61,069 bases of DNA from a virus, in IMG/VR virus record IMGVR_UViG_3300032315_000228, positions 1 to 61,069 of that record; one strand, written 5' to 3'. How positions within the stretch are numbered: the stretch's first letter is position 1; each line of letters opens with the position of its first letter. A program made the position numbers and the translations under genes. The notes under the pieces are model-generated. The model was not told where the DNA came from and did no database searches. It saw only the letters and a program-made list of their open reading frames with translations. This document shows positions 18,866 to 37,888 of the stretch, piece by piece.

Positions 18866-20404
18866 TCAGTAGTACGCCGCAGAGCGACGTTTAAAAAATC
18901 GTGGTTCATCTGGCTCATCCGTGTCTAGCGTGATGAAGCCGCCTTGTCTGAATCGAAGTAGTGCTTGGCTGGTCGTGTCCACAAAGTCATCGTGTTCGCC
19001 AACTGGGAAGGCCGCAACCTCCTCAATCACTTCACGCGCCCAGCGTGTGTCAGGTGCCCACACCATACCAGAGGAGAACAAGTCCGCAATAGCCTGCACA
19101 CGCACCATCTTATCGTTTCCGCGGCTCGGTGTAAATTCTTGTACAGGGATACCCATCGCCCTAAGCTCTTGGATCAGTGGCCCACCTGCCGCCTTTTTCT
19201 CCACAATGAAGGCATCGGGTTGCCATTCTTTCCAATGCTTGAAGGCGACTTGTTTAAGTTCTGGGAATGGGATTCGGTCTTTGAAAGCGTCAAGGAGGAT
19301 AAGCTGGGGCTTGTCGTTCTCCTCTTCGTTGTACCAGACCCCCCAAGTAGTACAGGCAGAATAGTCGGAGGTTGTTTTGGTTTCATGCGCCGTGTCCCAT
19401 GACTGGATGATGTACTCACAAGTTGGTGGTGTGTCGCCCTCCCACATCCGCCAGTGCTTCCTTGAGATGATCGCCGCCGTATCCGAGGTAGGCTGCTGCA
19501 TATACTGCGCGTTCCAGTAGCGGGGATCCATTGAGGACTTGGCAGACTTCAGCGCTTCCAGCGGCCACTGCTCCGGCCAGAGGGATTTCTCTCTATCTGT
19601 GTTCTCGTTCAGGATGGCGGGAAGCTCAACAATCTCCCAGCGTGGGCTGTCGGGGTTGCTCACCTGATACTGTATGAGTCTGCCAGTTAAGTCCAGTGGC
19701 CCCCAGCGCGTCATGATTACTATGATCGCACCGCCCGGCATCAGACGTTGCAAAGGGCCCGTCTGGAACCAACTCCACGCCGTGTCAAACGCTAGACGAC
19801 TGTTTGCTTTTACGTCCTGTTCCGAGTGCGGGTCGTCGATAACAAAGAGATCAGCCCCGCGACCGGCAAGAGCACCACCAACACCAGCAGCGTAATACTG
19901 GCCCCCAGCAGCAGTACTCCACTTTCCAGCAGCTTTCTGGTCATCTGCAACAAGTGTCTGTGGAAATAGCTCATGGTATTGCTCATCATCAAGTAAGTTA
20001 CGAACCCGCCGACCAAAGTCTTCAGACAGCGATGCAGTGTGCGTCCCCATGATAATTTTCTTGTTAGGGTAATTACCTAGGAAGAACGCGGGGAACAGGT
20101 AAGACGAGAACTCGGACTTACCCATACGTGGGGCAATGTTGATAATTACTCTCTTCTTTTTACCCTCAATCACATCTTGAAATATCTTGGCCAGCTTCCT
20201 GTGGTGTGGCCCAACCTTAAATCCGGGGTAGACATACTTAGAAAACTCGATCATGTTAGTACGACCAGCGTTGACGTTGTAACGCTTCTCACGTTCTTCC
20301 AGCATCTCCATGAGCTCCACCTTCTCCGCCAAATTCATGGTGGGGAGAGCTTTCTGGATAGCCTGAATCTCAGTTGGACTCAGTGTCAGATCGTTCAGTT
20401 TCAT
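18866..20404 (-). CDS. terL: Terminase large subunit
   Basis: 512 residues. ATPase: Walker A variant APRMGKSE (91-98), Walker B LFVIDDP (186-192) and a coupling motif IVIMTRW (near 230). Nuclease (RNase H-like): first acidic strand YIIQSWDTA with D337, later FVDTTSQALLRF near 485. It pumps DNA into the procapsid and cuts the concatemer. The start overlaps the small-subunit gene by 35 nt, suggesting coupled translation. Family comparison would place the packaging type (cos, pac or direct repeats), which sequence inspection alone cannot. Confidence 0.95.
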   Translation of the reverse strand: MKLNDLTLSPTEIQAIQKALPTMNLAEKVELMEMLEEREKRYNVNAGRTNMIEFSKYVYPGFKVGPHHRKLAKIFQDVIEGKKKRVIINIAPRMGKSEFSSYLFPAFFLGNYPNKKIIMGTHTASLSEDFGRRVRNLLDDEQYHELFPQTLVADDQKAAGKWSTAAGGQYYAAGVGGALAGRGADLFVIDDPHSEQDVKANSRLAFDTAWSWFQTGPLQRLMPGGAIIVIMTRWGPLDLTGRLIQYQVSNPDSPRWEIVELPAILNENTDREKSLWPEQWPLEALKSAKSSMDPRYWNAQYMQQPTSDTAAIISRKHWRMWEGDTPPTCEYIIQSWDTAHETKTTSDYSACTTWGVWYNEEENDKPQLILLDAFKDRIPFPELKQVAFKHWKEWQPDAFIVEKKAAGGPLIQELRAMGIPVQEFTPSRGNDKMVRVQAIADLFSSGMVWAPDTRWAREVIEEVAAFPVGEHDDFVDTTSQALLRFRQGGFITLDTDEPDEPRFFKRRSAAYY

Positions 20405-20993
20405 TAGGTTCTTGTGTGTGAGTACTAACTTCTTCTATATCCTCAATAACATCGGCGTCTTGTACGCCCATGAACTTGGCCAGCTTGTCTTTGAGCTTGC
20501 GGTCGATCTCCTCATCCGTGAGGTCAGTTTTCTTAACTTCAATCTTGTCGGTGAACAACCCAACCTCAGTGACCTTACCTAGTAATCCCAACGCTTTTAG
20601 TCGGATATTAGCGCTGGGGTTTTCGCATTCTTCCAACAGTTTGGCAACTGTATAGCCACGAAGTTCTTTAGCTTGCTGCACAAACTCCCAGTCATAGGCA
20701 GTCAGCATCCCAACTAAATGCTGTACCGCAACCGGCGTTTTGATTTGCGCAAGATGTTCGTGCGTGATTTCACTTGGCGCTGAAGACACGAGGTTTGTAA
20801 AAGATGCCCGTGCTGCTTGAACTTCTGCGTTGCTGACTACTGTGTCTGTATCTGCGGCTCCTAAACTCTTGAGCCAGTCTGCTGTTTTTACTTTAGCGTC
20901 GATAGTGTCCGCCGGATGTTCTTTTTCAAGCGGCGTAGGTTTACCAGAGTGGGCAACCACTTCCGGTTCAAAATAAATAAGGTGATCTAACAT
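20370..20993 (-). CDS. terS: Probable terminase small subunit
   Basis: 207 residues. An N-terminal polar part is followed by a helical region (VAVQHLVGMLTAYDWEFVQQ, AKELRGYTVAKLLEECENPS, ANIRLKALGLLGKVTEVGLF) and an acidic tail. It is the first gene of the leftward arm and overlaps TerL. Small terminase subunits recognise the packaging site on DNA and stimulate TerL. The assignment relies on position and on the RGYTVAKLLEE...LGKVTEVGLFTDK pattern seen before other phage terL genes; a clear HTH motif was not identified. Confidence 0.65.
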   Translation of the reverse strand: MLDHLIYFEPEVVAHSGKPTPLEKEHPADTIDAKVKTADWLKSLGAADTDTVVSNAEVQAARASFTNLVSSAPSEITHEHLAQIKTPVAVQHLVGMLTAYDWEFVQQAKELRGYTVAKLLEECENPSANIRLKALGLLGKVTEVGLFTDKIEVKKTDLTDEEIDRKLKDKLAKFMGVQDADVIEDIEEVSTHTQEPNETERSDTESN

Positions 20994-21008: not shown

Positions 21009-21037
21009 TTGTACCTGCGATGCGCGGAGTGTATACT
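21009..21037 (+). promoter_or_regulatory. Promoter of the candidate small RNA
   Basis: TTGTAC (21009-21014), exactly 17 bp, TATACT (21032-21037; 5/6). Predicted start about 21044-21046. It points right into a 120-nt region without an open frame that ends in a strong terminator. Confidence 0.6.
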
Positions 21038-21057
21038 ACTTTTTAAGTGATGGGCAA
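21030..21057 (-). promoter_or_regulatory. Candidate leftward promoter for the packaging genes
   Basis: On the minus strand TTGCCC (21057-21052), 16 bp, TATACA (21035-21030). It interlocks with the rightward promoter, so polymerase binding at one would exclude the other. It is the only promoter-like sequence seen just upstream of 20370-20993. Confidence 0.4.
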
Positions 21058-21164
21058 GTTGCGAATTGGCCTTTGGCCAACCGCAACAGCAGTTGCCGGT
21101 TGCTTCTCCTCGGTTGTTGGTTCGACCGTTTAGCCCCCTGATGAAAGTCAGGGGGTTTTTTTTT
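21045..21164 (+). ncRNA. Candidate structured small RNA with anti-Shine-Dalgarno segment
   Basis: From a predicted start near 21045 to the terminator, about 120 nt with no meaningful open frame. Four successive hairpins: TTGGCC-TTT-GGCCAA (21066-21080); CCGCAAC-AGCA-GTTGCCGG with one bulge (21081-21099); CGGTTG/CGACCG (21111-21128, one G-U pair); and the terminator stem. Between hairpins 2 and 3, 21100-21110 (TTGCTTCTCCT) is unpaired and is the exact complement of AGGAGAAGCAA, the ribosome-binding segment just before the ATG of 37889; other early genes match over 10-11 nt. This suggests a trans-acting translational regulator. Existence and targets are inferred. Confidence 0.6.
21134..21164 (+). 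terminator. Strong rightward terminator
   Basis: CCCCCTGA (21134-21141), loop TGAAAG, TCAGGGGG (21148-21155), then nine T. No T-run exists on the other side, so it acts only on rightward RNA. As no rightward gene lies upstream, its existence implies a short rightward transcript. Confidence 0.9.
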
Positions 21165-21477
21165 GATTGAATACTTATTCTGCGGCTTTGTAAACTTAAA
21201 CTGTTTTGTCCAACGGTTTACACAAATTTTTATAAAATTTTTTGGGGTGGGGCATTAGTTGTAAAGTACTAAATTGAGTTGTGGAGAATGGCTGGGGAAT
21301 AGTGTTCATATGGTGACGGGGGTACGCCCTGTATATGGGGGGATGGGGGGTAGGTGGGGTCTAAGGTTCTCAGTTTATACGGCTTTGTAGTACCCTCGAA
21401 TACCCCTTCCATACAATAGAGGTATCGGTTCGGGGCACTTTGCCTACGACGATACTCGTTCTTGAAAGGAACACACC
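21165..21477. other. Non-coding control region, candidate replication origin
   Basis: No gene seen. It holds a TGTAAAC/GTTTACA inverted repeat (21189-21195 and 21216-21222), a TGTC-type dyad (21207-21222), a strongly AT-rich stretch (21223-21242), then G-rich runs (GGGGTGGGG at 21243-21251; runs at 21318-21322, 21337-21342, 21345-21350, 21356-21359) that could form a quadruplex. A -10-like TACAAT (21412-21417) without a good -35 box may serve the early operon. AT-rich DNA next to G-runs at the point where transcription diverges fits an origin, but this is inference. Confidence 0.45.
21207..21222. promoter_or_regulatory. TGTC dyad, site 1
   Basis: TGTCCAACGGTTTACA matches the sites at 29504-29519 and 37851-37866 (12 of 16 positions with the latter). 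Preceded by GTAAACTTAAACTG, similar to GTAAACGTGTAAACTG before site 3. Candidate binding site for an early regulator. Confidence 0.4.
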
Positions 21478-21860: not shown

Positions 21861-21879
21861 TCGGGTCACGGTGACCCGA
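21861..21879 (+). repeat. GGGTCAC palindrome, copy 1
   Basis: Core GGGTCACGGTGACCC at 21863-21877, extended to TCGGGTCA-CGG-TGACCCGA and followed by ATTTTT, so this copy also looks like an intrinsic terminator. It begins 2 nt after the stop of 21478-21858. Three other copies follow early stop codons. Confidence 0.85.
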
Positions 21880-21971: not shown

Positions 21972-22121
21972 ATGCACAAACTCATCAACGCATATCGCAA
22001 ACTGCCCTCACCATCAAACCGCGCCAAACTGCAAACCTACCTCAACAAGCACATGATGGCCGTGTGCCTTGCAACCCCCGAGGACATTGCGTTCCTCAAA
22101 GCCCACAACTTCAGCATCTAA
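21972..22121 (+). CDS. Very small early protein
   Basis: 49 residues (MHKLINAYRKLPSPSNRAKL ... ATPEDIAFLKAHNFSI). AGGAGAAAC stands directly before the ATG at 21972, and the stop overlaps the AGGAG of the next gene. The sequence looks like a helix-loop-helix mini-protein. No similarity recognised; likely a host-takeover factor as for other genes in this block. Confidence 0.7.
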   Translation: MHKLINAYRKLPSPSNRAKLQTYLNKHMMAVCLATPEDIAFLKAHNFSI

Positions 22122-22132
22122 GGAGAACCAAC

Positions 22133-22342: not shown

Positions 22343-22357
22343 GGGTCACGGTGACCC
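22343..22357 (+). repeat. GGGTCAC palindrome, copy 2
   Basis: GGGTCACGGTGACCC, 9 nt after the stop of 22133-22333. It is followed by TATTATTG, a poor terminator tail. Confidence 0.85.
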
Positions 22358-23462: not shown

Positions 23463-23467
23463 ATTTC

Positions 23468-23482
23468 GGGTCACAGTGACCC
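23468..23482 (+). repeat. GGGTCAC palindrome, copy 3
   Basis: GGGTCACAGTGACCC, 5 nt after the stop of 22740-23462. Immediately downstream is a weaker hairpin (GGCAT...ATGCC, about 23494-23514). Confidence 0.85.
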
Positions 23483-23564
23483 GATTTATGTGTGGCATTC
23501 CGTCAGGCGATGCCGCGCACCACCCCGAACCTAGCCTGACATTCGTAACCGAAGGAGAAAAGAA

Positions 23565-23812: not shown

Positions 23813-24247
23813 ATGAGAGTAAGTGAACTGACAGGACACGCCCTTAACTGGGCGGTGGCGCAAGCCGAAGGTGACAAGGTGTACCGCCCACGCTTGGGTA
23901 GACCCGATAACTGGGACAAGGAAGCGTATCTCGCGGATGGGTCAGACGATAGGTGGGTTGTGCGTGTGCAGAACCCTAAAGTCGCGCACTTTGTGGACTG
24001 GACATACAGCCCCAGCAGTAGCTGGTGGCAAGGCGGGGCGATTGTTGAGCGGGAGGTGCCAATGCTGATGCGTACAAACGGCGGTGACTGGATTGCTCAA
24101 GGCAGTTACGACTTCGCCAACGACACAGAGGCGAAGAGGTACTACGGAAAGACGCTACTTGAAGCTGCCATGCGGTGCTATGTAGCAAGCAAGCTCGGCG
24201 ATGAAGTCGAGATACCCGAGGAGTTAACACAAGGAGAAAACAAATGA
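23813..24247 (+). CDS. NinX / DUF2591-like phage protein
   Basis: 144 residues. The order ELTGHALNWAVAQAEG, YSPSSSWWQGGAIVEREVPM, GGDWIAQGSYD and LLEAAMRCYVASKLGDEVEI is the DUF2591 (NinX) pattern, in which the first motif is LxGxxLDxAVA and the last AMRCyVasklGdeVeVP. NinX of lambdoid phages lies in the nin region and has no known biochemical role. Here the last codons (QGENK) contain the AGGAG of the next gene, and the stop overlaps its ATG (ATGA). Confidence 0.85.
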   Translation: MRVSELTGHALNWAVAQAEGDKVYRPRLGRPDNWDKEAYLADGSDDRWVVRVQNPKVAHFVDWTYSPSSSWWQGGAIVEREVPMLMRTNGGDWIAQGSYDFANDTEAKRYYGKTLLEAAMRCYVASKLGDEVEIPEELTQGENK

Positions 24248-24399: not shown

Positions 24400-24536
24400 A
24401 AGACGAACAAGTGCATTGCCTTAAGTGTGACCATGTGTGGAACGAGCAAGATTCACCTGACGCTTGCCCACATTGTGGCAACACCGACAAAGAGCAGACA
24501 GTTTATTTAACAACACCACAAGGAGAAAGCAAATGA
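24396..24536 (+). CDS. Zinc-ribbon mini-protein
   Basis: 46 residues with two CxxC knuckles, CLKC (8-11) and CPHC (24-27), 12 residues apart, as in rubredoxin-like or zinc-ribbon proteins. Both flanks are ATGA overlaps, and the C-terminus (QGESK) is encoded by the ribosome binding site of the next gene. Possible roles are nucleic acid or RNA polymerase binding. Confidence 0.75.
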   Translation: MKDEQVHCLKCDHVWNEQDSPDACPHCGNTDKEQTVYLTTPQGESK

Positions 24537-25793: not shown

Positions 25794-25845
25794 GGGTCAC
25801 AGTGACCCGATTCTTATGGGTTAGTGGTGTGCCCTCTCACACCAC
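25794..25845 (+). repeat. GGGTCAC palindrome, copy 4, plus second hairpin
   Basis: GGGTCACAGTGACCC at 25794-25808, 6 nt after a stop codon, then a perfect 8-bp hairpin GTGGTGTG/CACACCAC (25824-25845, 6-nt loop) just before the next ribosome binding site. Neither is followed by a T-run. Confidence 0.8.
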
Positions 25846-28369: not shown

Positions 28370-28388
28370 AACTTAAAGGAGAAGTAAC

Positions 28389-29542: not shown

Positions 29543-29562
29543 TTTTAACAAAGGAGAAAGCA

Positions 29563-30060
29563 ATGCCAGACATTAAAACAGCCATGAGCGGTGTGCTCGA
29601 TGAATGGGAATTAGATAATCAACAACAGGAGAAGCAAGTGAAACACATACCACACTTTAAAGTAACTAACAACGTAACACGAGCAACATTCGATTACGTT
29701 AAAAACAACCCGCACAAATCATGCAAGACCATCTGCGTAGCATTGGAGAAGGATGGGTACAAGCCAGCATCTGTTGGCTCATTGCTCACGCAGTTTGTTA
29801 AGAATGGGTTGTGCATGAGGGATGCGAATGGCAACTACACGACGATAGTCAACGAGTACAAGCCCATAAAGGTAAGCAAGCAACTTAAAGCGGCGCAGGT
29901 CATACAGAAAGCCAAAGTTACACGAGGCGAGGGCATCGCCGCGCTCAGTCCGCAGCCTACGGTGAAGCTAGTGTGGGATGCGGATACAGTCATTAACAAC
30001 ATCGGCTTGAAGCAGGCGCACGCCCTGTATAAAGAGCTTGGCAAATATTTTGGAGGTTGA
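29563..30060 (+). CDS. Winged-helix-like early protein
   Basis: 165 residues from the ATG at 29563 (AAAGGAGAAAGCA upstream). Residues about 45-105 (RATFDYVKNNPHKSCKTICV, ALEKDGYKPASVGSLLTQFV, KNGLCMRDANGNYTTI) have the helix-helix-wing order of a winged HTH. The C-terminus (NNIGLKQAHALYKELGKYFG) is a separate conserved helix. It follows the best promoter of the early arm, so it may be a DNA-binding regulator. An internal GTG at 29638 with a perfect AGGAGAAGCAA could start a 140-residue form. Confidence 0.7.
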   Translation: MPDIKTAMSGVLDEWELDNQQQEKQVKHIPHFKVTNNVTRATFDYVKNNPHKSCKTICVALEKDGYKPASVGSLLTQFVKNGLCMRDANGNYTTIVNEYKPIKVSKQLKAAQVIQKAKVTRGEGIAALSPQPTVKLVWDADTVINNIGLKQAHALYKELGKYFGG

Positions 30061-32756: not shown

Positions 32757-34720
32757 CAAAACCATTTGACAGGATACTGACCATCGACTTTGAAACTCGG
32801 TGGGACAAGCGTGACTACACGCTATCCAAGATGACAACAGAGGAGTACATACGTGATAAAAGGTTCTTATCGTTCGGCGCTTGTGTCCATGAGTATGGAA
32901 GCACAGATGACATTAGCTGGGTTAGAGGAGCAGACCTACCTGAATTCTTTTCGGGAATTGACTGGGGACGGACAGCAGTGCTGGCGCATAACGCACAGTT
33001 CGATGTATCCATCCTTGAGTGGGTCTACGATTCTCACCCAGCCTTTATATTCGACACACTATCAATGGGACGCGCTCTTCGAGGCGTGGAAGTGGGGAAC
33101 AGTCTTGCGAAGCTGGCGCTCGACTTCGGACTTCAGCCAAAGGGAACGGCAGTACACAGCACTGATGGCCTCACATCAATATCGCCAGACATTGAAAAAG
33201 AACTCGCCGACTACTGTGCGCATGATGTGTACCTGTGCGAAGAAATTTTCAAGCGATTCATTGTTGGATACCCCAAATCCGAATTGCGTTTGATCGACAT
33301 GACGCTCAAGATGTACACACGACCGTACCTTGAGCTTGACAGCAAGATGCTTATCAAGGCACTGACAGAAGAAGGAGAAGCCCGTGAAAGTCTATTACAA
33401 AAGCTCGGCATACAGGAAACTGAACTTGCGTCGAACCCGAAGTTTGCTGCCATACTTGAAAGCCTCGGGGCTGTTGCCCCCACAAAAATTAGTAAAACTA
33501 CCGGCAAAGAAACACTCGCGCTGGCAAAAAACGACGCCCTCTTCCAAGCGTTGCTCAATGGTGAACGTGAGGATGTTGCCCTCCTTTGCGAAGCACGCCT
33601 TCGGGTTAAGTCAACGACTGAAAGAACCAGAGCCCAGCGCTTCCTCGATATATCCCAACGCGGCAAGCTACCTGTACCTTTATCGTATTACGGCGCTCTC
33701 TCGGGTCGCTGGACGGCGGCAAAGGGCAGCGCAATTAACATGCAAAACCTCAAGCGAGGCAGTTTCCTACGCAAAGCAATTATGGCTCCCGAGGGCTACC
33801 AGCTTGTTGTCGGTGACCTCTCACAGATTGAACCGCGAGTACTTGCGTGGCTTTCGGATTACCAAGATATGCTCAACATCTTCAGGTCAGGCGCTGACCC
33901 TTACGCGGCTTTCGGAGCGCAGATGTTTGACATACCCGGACTTACTAAGGAGTCTCATCCGGAGCTCCGTCAGTCTGCGAAAAGCGCCTTACTTGGTTGC
34001 GGCTACGGCTTGGGCTGGTCATCATTCGCGTCCCAGCTTCTCGTGGGGTTCCTCGGTGCGCCGCCGATCCGGTATGAAAGAGCCTTTGCAAAGGCGTTGA
34101 AAGTTAACCAAGAGATGGCCGAGCGCTTCTTGGAATGGTCTGAAACAGAGATCAAGCTAAGGGATATCCCACACACATGTAGCTATGCCGAGTTAGTGCA
34201 CCACGCTATCGCGGCCAAGCGCATCATTGATATATACCGTAACACGGCGTACCCTGTTGTGTCATTTTGGGACATGTGCTCTGACCTATTAGTGTCCGCG
34301 CTGGTCAACGGCAAGGAACACACCCACAAGTGCTTGACATTTAAGAAGGGTGCAATAGAATTGCCTAACGGGATGAGCTTGCTTTACCCCGATTTGCGCG
34401 AAATCAAAGACGAAAAAGGTAGGAGCCAGTGGGTATACGGGCCAAACGCTACCAAGTTGTATGCAGGGAAGATAACGAATAACGTAACACAGGCTGTTGC
34501 GCGTATTGTCATGACCGATGGAATGCTGCGGGTATCAAAGAGATACCCCGTGGTGGGAACAGTGCATGACGAGTTGATCGCGCTTGTGCCTGACAGTGAG
34601 GTCGAAGAAGCTAAGACTTGGGTCTTGGAGCAGATGACTATGGAGCCGAGTTATATGCCGGGGATACCCTTGGCCGCTGACGGTGGTGCACACCGTAGAT
34701 ATGGAGAAGCAAAGACATGA
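32753..34720 (+). CDS. Family A DNA polymerase with 3'-5' exonuclease
   Basis: 655 residues, from a TTG at 32753 (GGAGG 7 nt upstream; TTGA overlap with the previous stop). Exonuclease motifs: IDFET (D12, E14), AHNAQFD (N80, D84), YCAHD (Y154-D158). Polymerase motifs: A, VVGDLSQIEPRVLAW (D355); B, RQSAKSALLGCGYG (R406, K410, Y418); C, VHDE (605-608 region, D606). All catalytic residues are present. No 5' nuclease domain. Length fits short phage replicases; replicates the genome with the primase-helicase at 39730. No thioredoxin-binding loop is evident. Confidence 0.93.
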   Translation: MTKPFDRILTIDFETRWDKRDYTLSKMTTEEYIRDKRFLSFGACVHEYGSTDDISWVRGADLPEFFSGIDWGRTAVLAHNAQFDVSILEWVYDSHPAFIFDTLSMGRALRGVEVGNSLAKLALDFGLQPKGTAVHSTDGLTSISPDIEKELADYCAHDVYLCEEIFKRFIVGYPKSELRLIDMTLKMYTRPYLELDSKMLIKALTEEGEARESLLQKLGIQETELASNPKFAAILESLGAVAPTKISKTTGKETLALAKNDALFQALLNGEREDVALLCEARLRVKSTTERTRAQRFLDISQRGKLPVPLSYYGALSGRWTAAKGSAINMQNLKRGSFLRKAIMAPEGYQLVVGDLSQIEPRVLAWLSDYQDMLNIFRSGADPYAAFGAQMFDIPGLTKESHPELRQSAKSALLGCGYGLGWSSFASQLLVGFLGAPPIRYERAFAKALKVNQEMAERFLEWSETEIKLRDIPHTCSYAELVHHAIAAKRIIDIYRNTAYPVVSFWDMCSDLLVSALVNGKEHTHKCLTFKKGAIELPNGMSLLYPDLREIKDEKGRSQWVYGPNATKLYAGKITNNVTQAVARIVMTDGMLRVSKRYPVVGTVHDELIALVPDSEVEEAKTWVLEQMTMEPSYMPGIPLAADGGAHRRYGEAKT

Positions 34721-36240: not shown

Positions 36241-36257
36241 AACAATGGAGAAGCAAC

Positions 36258-37866: not shown

Positions 37867-37888
37867 AATAACATAACAGGAGAAGCAA

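Follow-up and report, generated by a model that had tools for sequence, protein, structure and literature searches.

A single plus-strand cassette, consisting of a promoter, a structured RNA and then a terminator, lies at positions 21009 to 21164 of the 61,069-nucleotide stretch of viral DNA analysed here (hereafter the window), and its RNA is quite probably a trans-acting, multi-target antisense small RNA (sRNA) that would repress the early genes of the phage by blocking their translation. The open (U)UCUCCU tip of this RNA complements the Shine-Dalgarno (SD) sequence AGGAGA(A) of early genes, and the adjoining UUGCU, held in a G-U-rich stem, complements the AGCAA that comes next, as far as the start codon. 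The early genes occupy the plus strand from 21478 to 42621 and are flanked on both sides by structural and packaging genes on the minus strand, the cassette being located between the TerS-position gene and the first called early ORF (21478). Its parts and its neighbours are listed below.

18866-20404: terminase large subunit (TerL, Pfam-supported), following the TerS-position gene
20370-20993, minus strand: TerS-position gene (207 aa), without a Pfam match of its own, our marker for finding relatives
21009-21037, plus strand: sigma-70-type promoter, with -35 TTGTAC (21009-21014) and -10 TATACT (21032-21037) at 17-nt spacing, as in relatives (sequence)
21045-21164, plus strand: predicted sRNA of about 120 nt, its 5' end placed from the -10 and its 3' end from the T run (sequence, fold, and conservation upstream of terS)
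21045-21105, plus strand: long 5' hairpin P1 with a hypervariable top; its base, 21045-21051 paired with 21099-21105, contains the UUGCUU half of the seed, and it encloses further hairpins (folds)
21100-21110, plus strand: seed TTGCTTCTCCT, with CTCCT (21106-21110) single-stranded in the fold
21111-21128, plus strand: small hairpin P3 (folds; 47 different arm pairs in relatives)
21132-21164, plus strand: intrinsic terminator of 11 pairs (stem 21132-21157) and nine T (21156-21164) (sequence)

The promoter at its 17-bp spacing and the terminator with nine T are as described in an earlier note on this DNA, and the absence of a gene within the cassette, which it had also reported, was confirmed: the window copy has a 27-aa ORF without an SD, and because any such ORF occurs in just 12 of 124 cassettes, none of them with an SD, a small protein was ruled out and the cassette is regarded as non-coding. 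An SD-like reverse complement of the seed, followed in some phages by ATG, suggested a minus-strand function; this was discarded as a general rule, since many copies, that of the window among them, have no start codon at this place and the terminator has plus-strand orientation. A tRNA/tmRNA search of the window returned nothing, and an Rfam scan of the window returned no family at gathering scores. The window RNA folds at -57.2 kcal/mol, compared with -36.0 kcal/mol in dinucleotide shuffles (z = -5.4). The same note had taken the whole of 21100-21110 to be unpaired. Fold probabilities of the window copy uphold this for CTCCT at 21106-21110 (probability unpaired 0.98-1.0), whereas TTGCTT (21100-21105) lies in the G-U-rich stem, with 21100-21104 paired (probability unpaired 0-0.05) and 21105 half open. 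The -10 region (21030-21037) also includes a near-palindromic TGTA(T/C)A, where a leftward terS -10 could overlap; such an overlap would give divergent promoters and a terS leader partly antisense to the sRNA.

The carriers of the cassette are a large family of uncultured phages. Among annotated phage relatives, the window DNA and TerS were unmatched and the best TerL match was 53%, while one scan gave at least 590 TerS relatives among the matches listed. Upstream of terS, the cassette was found directly in 251 of the 271 sequences with TerS; twelve of the remaining 20 have a variant seed and eight are ended by a contig border, and every relative whose contig extends far enough has the cassette at this place. 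Of the 125 distinct cassettes, 120 have a 17-nt promoter spacer and 117 have TATACT or TACACT as the -10; one distant match, L100, was excluded from later counts, which refer to 124. Owing to a hypervariable P1 top, the distance from the -10 to the T run ranges from 83 to 136 nt. Folds left (U)UCUCCU open in all classes (0.88-0.99) and UUGCU paired, both main seed classes having UUGC paired and UCUCCU open. The seed C has G as its partner in 121 of 124 cassettes, and the seed G has C in 54 and U in 67, so that the P1 stem persists through changes of its 5' strand and stays G-U-rich. Across the 47 arm pairs of P3, 93% paired with their own partner compared with 48% when swapped, the arms being drawn from folds, which favours this outcome; a fold-independent test was weak (own 5.34 versus swapped 5.01 of 6; perfect matches 42% versus 25%). 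MAFFT with RNAalifold across the cassettes recovered the terminator stem alone, because the P1 insert and the P3 register vary, and our stem claims are therefore based on individual folds and swap tests. The conserved open seed with covarying stems that the earlier note had looked to in relatives was thus found in part: the seed is conserved and UCUCCU open, whereas UUGCU is paired and stem covariation, as judged from these alignments and folds, appears only moderate.

Several further observations were made around the cassette. A hairpin of about 31 nt (TTGCGAATTGGCCTTTGGCCAACCGCAACA), at about 21058-21088 in the window, is present or absent in the P1 top among closely related cassettes; the homologous places in L018, L003, L037 and L039 mark it as a polymorphic insertion within the sRNA, and a similar TTTTGGCC hairpin sits in the P1 top of another clade. 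After the terminator, relatives share a conserved element (window 21200-21245), a palindrome of the GTCTAACGTTAGAC type beside AAATTTTTATAAAATTTTT and then a G-rich stretch, for which operator, origin or promoter are possible roles. Copies of a GGGTCACNGTGACCC hairpin stand between early genes in at least four places (21861-21879, 22343-22357, 23466-23484 and 25794-25808). Two of 13 exact 16-mer matches, L008 and L014, were dismissed as chance, the cassette being absent. A search for a chromosomal progenitor with the R1 model gave weak matches in 32 of 150 bacterial genomes, and the cassette was absent from the ten retrieved. At the R1 matches L338 (about 1443, minus strand of the locus), L332, L334 and L335, bacterial genomes have RNA-like cassettes in which UCCUCC stretches are combined with hairpins and terminators; some of these cassettes are perhaps undescribed double-hairpin sRNAs. 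L099, a contig of a Rhodocyclaceae metagenome-assembled genome (MAG), encodes a terminase 56% identical to that of the window phage, and the corresponding small gene is not preceded by an obvious cassette.

The candidate target sites in the window are the following.

37878-37888, plus strand: AGGAGAAGCAA, exact 11-nt complement of the seed, at ATG 37889 (134 aa)
36246-36256, plus strand: TGGAGAAGCAA, 10-nt complement, before TTG 36258 (SNF2/DEAD helicase, 519 aa)
34702-34712, plus strand: TGGAGAAGCAA, complement to the seed, before ATG 34717 (106 aa, phrog_1233)
28377-28387, plus strand: AGGAGAAGTAA, 11 nt including one G-U pair, before ATG 28389 (65 aa)
29552-29563, plus strand: AGGAGAAAGCAA, pairing with a one-base bulge, at ATG 29563 (165 aa)
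29627-29637, plus strand: AGGAGAAGCAA, internal, before in-frame GTG 29638 of the same gene as ATG 29563
24521-24532, plus strand: AGGAGAAAGCAA, pairing with a one-base bulge, before ATG 24533 (63 aa)
22121-22131, plus strand: AGGAGAACCAA, weaker, before ATG 22133 (66 aa)
24232-24243, plus strand: AGGAGAAAACAA, weaker, before ATG 24244 (51 aa)

All the target sites quoted in the earlier note exist, including the exact 11-nt complement at 37878-37888, and the two exact AGGAGAAAGCAA sites (24521-24532 and 29552-29563) are additional to them. Allowing one mismatch or none, AGGAGAAGCAA occurs 9 times in the window compared with 1.27 expected (0 of 100 shuffles). The product of ATG 37889 is phrog_13900, weakly Mu Gam-like, and most of 20 orthologues of its gene retain GGAG followed by the seed complement; the sites of the helicase and phrog_1233 genes are also often retained among orthologues. 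Net binding after stem opening is moderate in the window, at -5 to -15 kcal/mol, and one late start region scores -21, both of which weigh against the antisense reading. The gene at 29563-30060 has its second seed-complementary ribosome binding site (RBS) internally, before the in-frame GTG 29638, and G001, G002 and G010 have a similar arrangement; this may be an internal start, or merely a conserved coding stretch (QEKQV).

We then compared early and late genes in 22 phages (the window and 21 further genomes or long contigs), in which genes were called by a simple, heuristic script and grouped into orthologues. Within 20 nt before the start, GGAGA was found in 345 of 826 early and 61 of 782 late genes, and AGGAGA in 252 of the 826 and 25 of the 782, pooled counts that are descriptive, since the genomes are related rather than independent and kinship was examined via the tree check alone. 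Among genes that have AGGAG, an A comes directly after it in 254 of 335 early and 25 of 127 late ones. When four letters are read beginning with the first letter other than A behind GGAGA, GCAA occurs at 74 of 348 early starts, followed by GAAC with 26. Duplexes of -16 kcal/mol or stronger are predicted at 102/826 early versus 5/782 late starts. When the anti-SD part of the seed was kept and its head replaced by 20-60 permuted heads, the real head came first in 15 of the 22 genomes and within the top two in 20; moreover, CAU precedes the seed in 48/124 cassettes, extending the complement over the start codon. As in trans-encoded base-pairing sRNAs, the seed complements the RBSs of several mRNAs to an extent greater than chance, and the sequence provides an own promoter, an intrinsic terminator and no coding. 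The earlier note had proposed a multi-target RNA directed against replication genes: the complement is indeed concentrated at early RBSs and depleted at late ones, with the qualification that many small early ORFs are concerned too. Its reading of the cassette appears, on these sequence comparisons, largely supported.

Changes of the seed were then set against changes of the sites. There are two main seed types, UUGCUUCUCC (TT) and UUGCUUUCUCC (TTT), and nearly all AGGAGAAGCAA sites near ATG belong to TT phages (14 versus 2). On the helicase tree the seed type has to change three times. Sites in the main TT clade are AAGCAA, while the recent TT clade (G007/G013/G014/G015) is discordant, having a short seed yet AAAGCAA sites, so that the TT/TTT length covariation on the tree comes to just one deep concordant and one discordant change. 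As far as the sequences tell, the rarer seeds are more telling than this split. G179 and G180 share the variant seed UUUACUUUUCUCC; the changed UUUACUUUUCUCCUC is matched by an exact AGGAGAAAAGUAA, which in G179 stands at the Gam-like gene and in G180 at a gene of 63 aa. In G178, whose seed is UUUGUUUCUCUCUCUU, the helicase has the matching GAGAGAGAAACAG and a gene of 62 aa has GGAGAGAGAAAUG. The seed/site change of G177 is partly concordant, and in G182/G183 the seed is UCUCUCUCC but the sites are GAGAAAGCAAATG, a seed change not followed by the targets. In a comparison of six seeds, the own seed was chosen in 17 of 28 genomes. Variant seeds are thus, in the genomes compared, accompanied by matching sites at orthologous genes (helicase, Gam-like), and two recent seed changes were not followed.

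The same data bear on other readings. The RNA might mainly hit host mRNAs to shut off translation, the phage early genes being collateral through their default SD and the late SDs having evolved immunity. UCUCCU does suit many bacterial SDs, AGGAGA is rare in late genes, and the anatomy of the RNA is shared with the RF02278 sRNAs of bacteria, the betaproteobacterial double-hairpin 'toxic' sRNAs, which cover RBSs with a CU-rich stretch and slow growth when overexpressed (PMC5688073, PMC11722255). However, AGGAGAAAGCAAATG accounts for 38 of 82 AGGAGAAANNNNATG sites on the early strand of the 22 phages and for 0 of about 314 AGGAGAAANNNNATG (total summed from the table) in 60 control genomes, taken from the bacterial order of the Rhodocyclaceae MAG that holds a distant terminase, an order that is a host guess only. 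By this comparison the GCAA extension after the SD core is phage-specific, and since the early phage sites also change with the seed, the phage targets would be under selection, which makes this host-directed reading unlikely. We consider it less probable still that the cassette serves the early operon as an attenuated leader, with a premature terminator and regulated read-through, rather than being a free sRNA. It does lie upstream of that operon on the same strand, with 21478 as the first called early ORF, but a leader leaves unexplained both the seed match to RBSs up to 17 kb away and the co-change of seed and sites, and the folds give a strong terminator in all classes and no evident alternative antiterminator pairing. 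There is very little room for the early genes being a sponge that titrates the RNA, its real role lying elsewhere, for instance on host RNAs once the early mRNAs are gone: each genome has many sites (the G008 contig has 12, some of them within its repeated ends), but their positions coincide exactly with translation starts, where initiation would be blocked by pairing and where sponge sites need not be. Equally improbable is an incidental match through a common RBS style or ribosome preference, for although AGGAGA is an SD and any anti-SD sequence should match it in part, early and late genes differ within the same phage, the extension is absent from the bacterial genomes searched, and the G178 sites became GAGAGAGAAACA, which fits the ribosomal CCUCC worse than the ancestral sites and the changed seed better.

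We therefore return to the trans-acting antisense sRNA, for which the following course is predicted. An RNA of about 120 nt would be made from its own sigma-70-type promoter and ended at the intrinsic terminator; its open UCUCCU tip would dock onto an early-gene SD, the weak, G-U-rich P1 stem would open by strand exchange, and the duplex would grow to 11-16 bp and block 30S binding at early-gene starts. Early proteins would fall, among them the SNF2 helicase, the Gam-like protein, the phrog_1233 protein and the products of many small early ORFs, and late genes, whose SDs are rarely AGGAGA, would remain translatable. The sigma-70-like promoter suggests that the RNA would appear early and cap early expression while accumulating; such a promoter alone does not give late timing.

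The nearest described RNAs are members of RF02278, namely the double-hairpin sRNAs bdhR1/ncS27 of Burkholderia and S17S of Bordetella. They likewise have an unpaired, pyrimidine-rich UCUCCU ahead of a small hairpin and a terminator, with RBS complementarity and many predicted targets (PMC5688073, PMC11722255). The window RNA aligned to positions 1-64 of the RF02278 model with a covariance score of 23.6 bits (E 0.004-0.009), and because this is below the gathering cutoff of 50, the cassette is not assigned to the family; nine relatives gave no match to RF02278 at E 0.5. In contrast to RF02278, which belongs to betaproteobacterial chromosomes, the cassette (i) has an extra long 5' hairpin holding half of the seed, (ii) occurs in phage contigs upstream of terS, (iii) has phage early genes as the evident targets of its RNA, and (iv) carries a different seed (UUGCUUUCUCCU versus UGUCUCCUCC). 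Anti-hemB (RF02837) also combines a pyrimidine-rich 5' part, a hairpin and a terminator, with a score of 21.3 against a gathering cutoff of 49.5 and a match mostly to the generic hairpin and terminator. The NmsR sibling sRNAs of Neisseria meningitidis have CU-rich unpaired stretches complementary to several RBSs (PMC5688073), but unlike the cassette RNA they are bacterial, in tandem, and have metabolic targets. Base-pairing RNAs of phages covered in the searched portion of a 2025 review include lambda OOP and aQ, P22 sar, lambda PreS and VP882 VpdS; OOP, aQ and sar each have a single phage gene as target, PreS targets a host gene, and VpdS affects phage and host RNAs through Hfq (PMC12197685). 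That portion of the review mentions no many-target repressor of a phage's own early RBSs with co-evolving sites. In its logic, as far as the distribution of sites goes, the cassette resembles T4 RegA/RegB, which down-regulate early genes in general after transcription, acting at translation initiation regions; the GGAG SDs of early mRNAs are cut by RegB, and late mRNAs resist (PMC3014915). RegA and RegB are proteins, a repressor and an endoribonuclease, whereas the cassette is non-coding and its structured RNA would act by base pairing.

It is an even call, in our view, whether one structured RNA serves as a general shutoff of early-gene (possibly also host) translation throughout this widespread family, with the early/late distinction encoded in the SD, AGGAGAAAGCAA being early and avoided by late genes, and with a regulon that co-evolves with a seed of 11-13 nt. 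That early sites often change along with the tip of the RNA suggests a built-in RNA switch that would turn the early genes down. If this is true, a phage family with at least 590 relatives among the matches listed would separate early from late expression by a base-pairing RNA and not by a protein, an RNA counterpart of T4 RegA/RegB, and its regulon would be readable directly from the genome sequence. The natural series of co-varying seed/site pairs would make the evolution of an sRNA regulon testable, and the cassette would provide a phage parallel to a betaproteobacterial sRNA class of unclear function.
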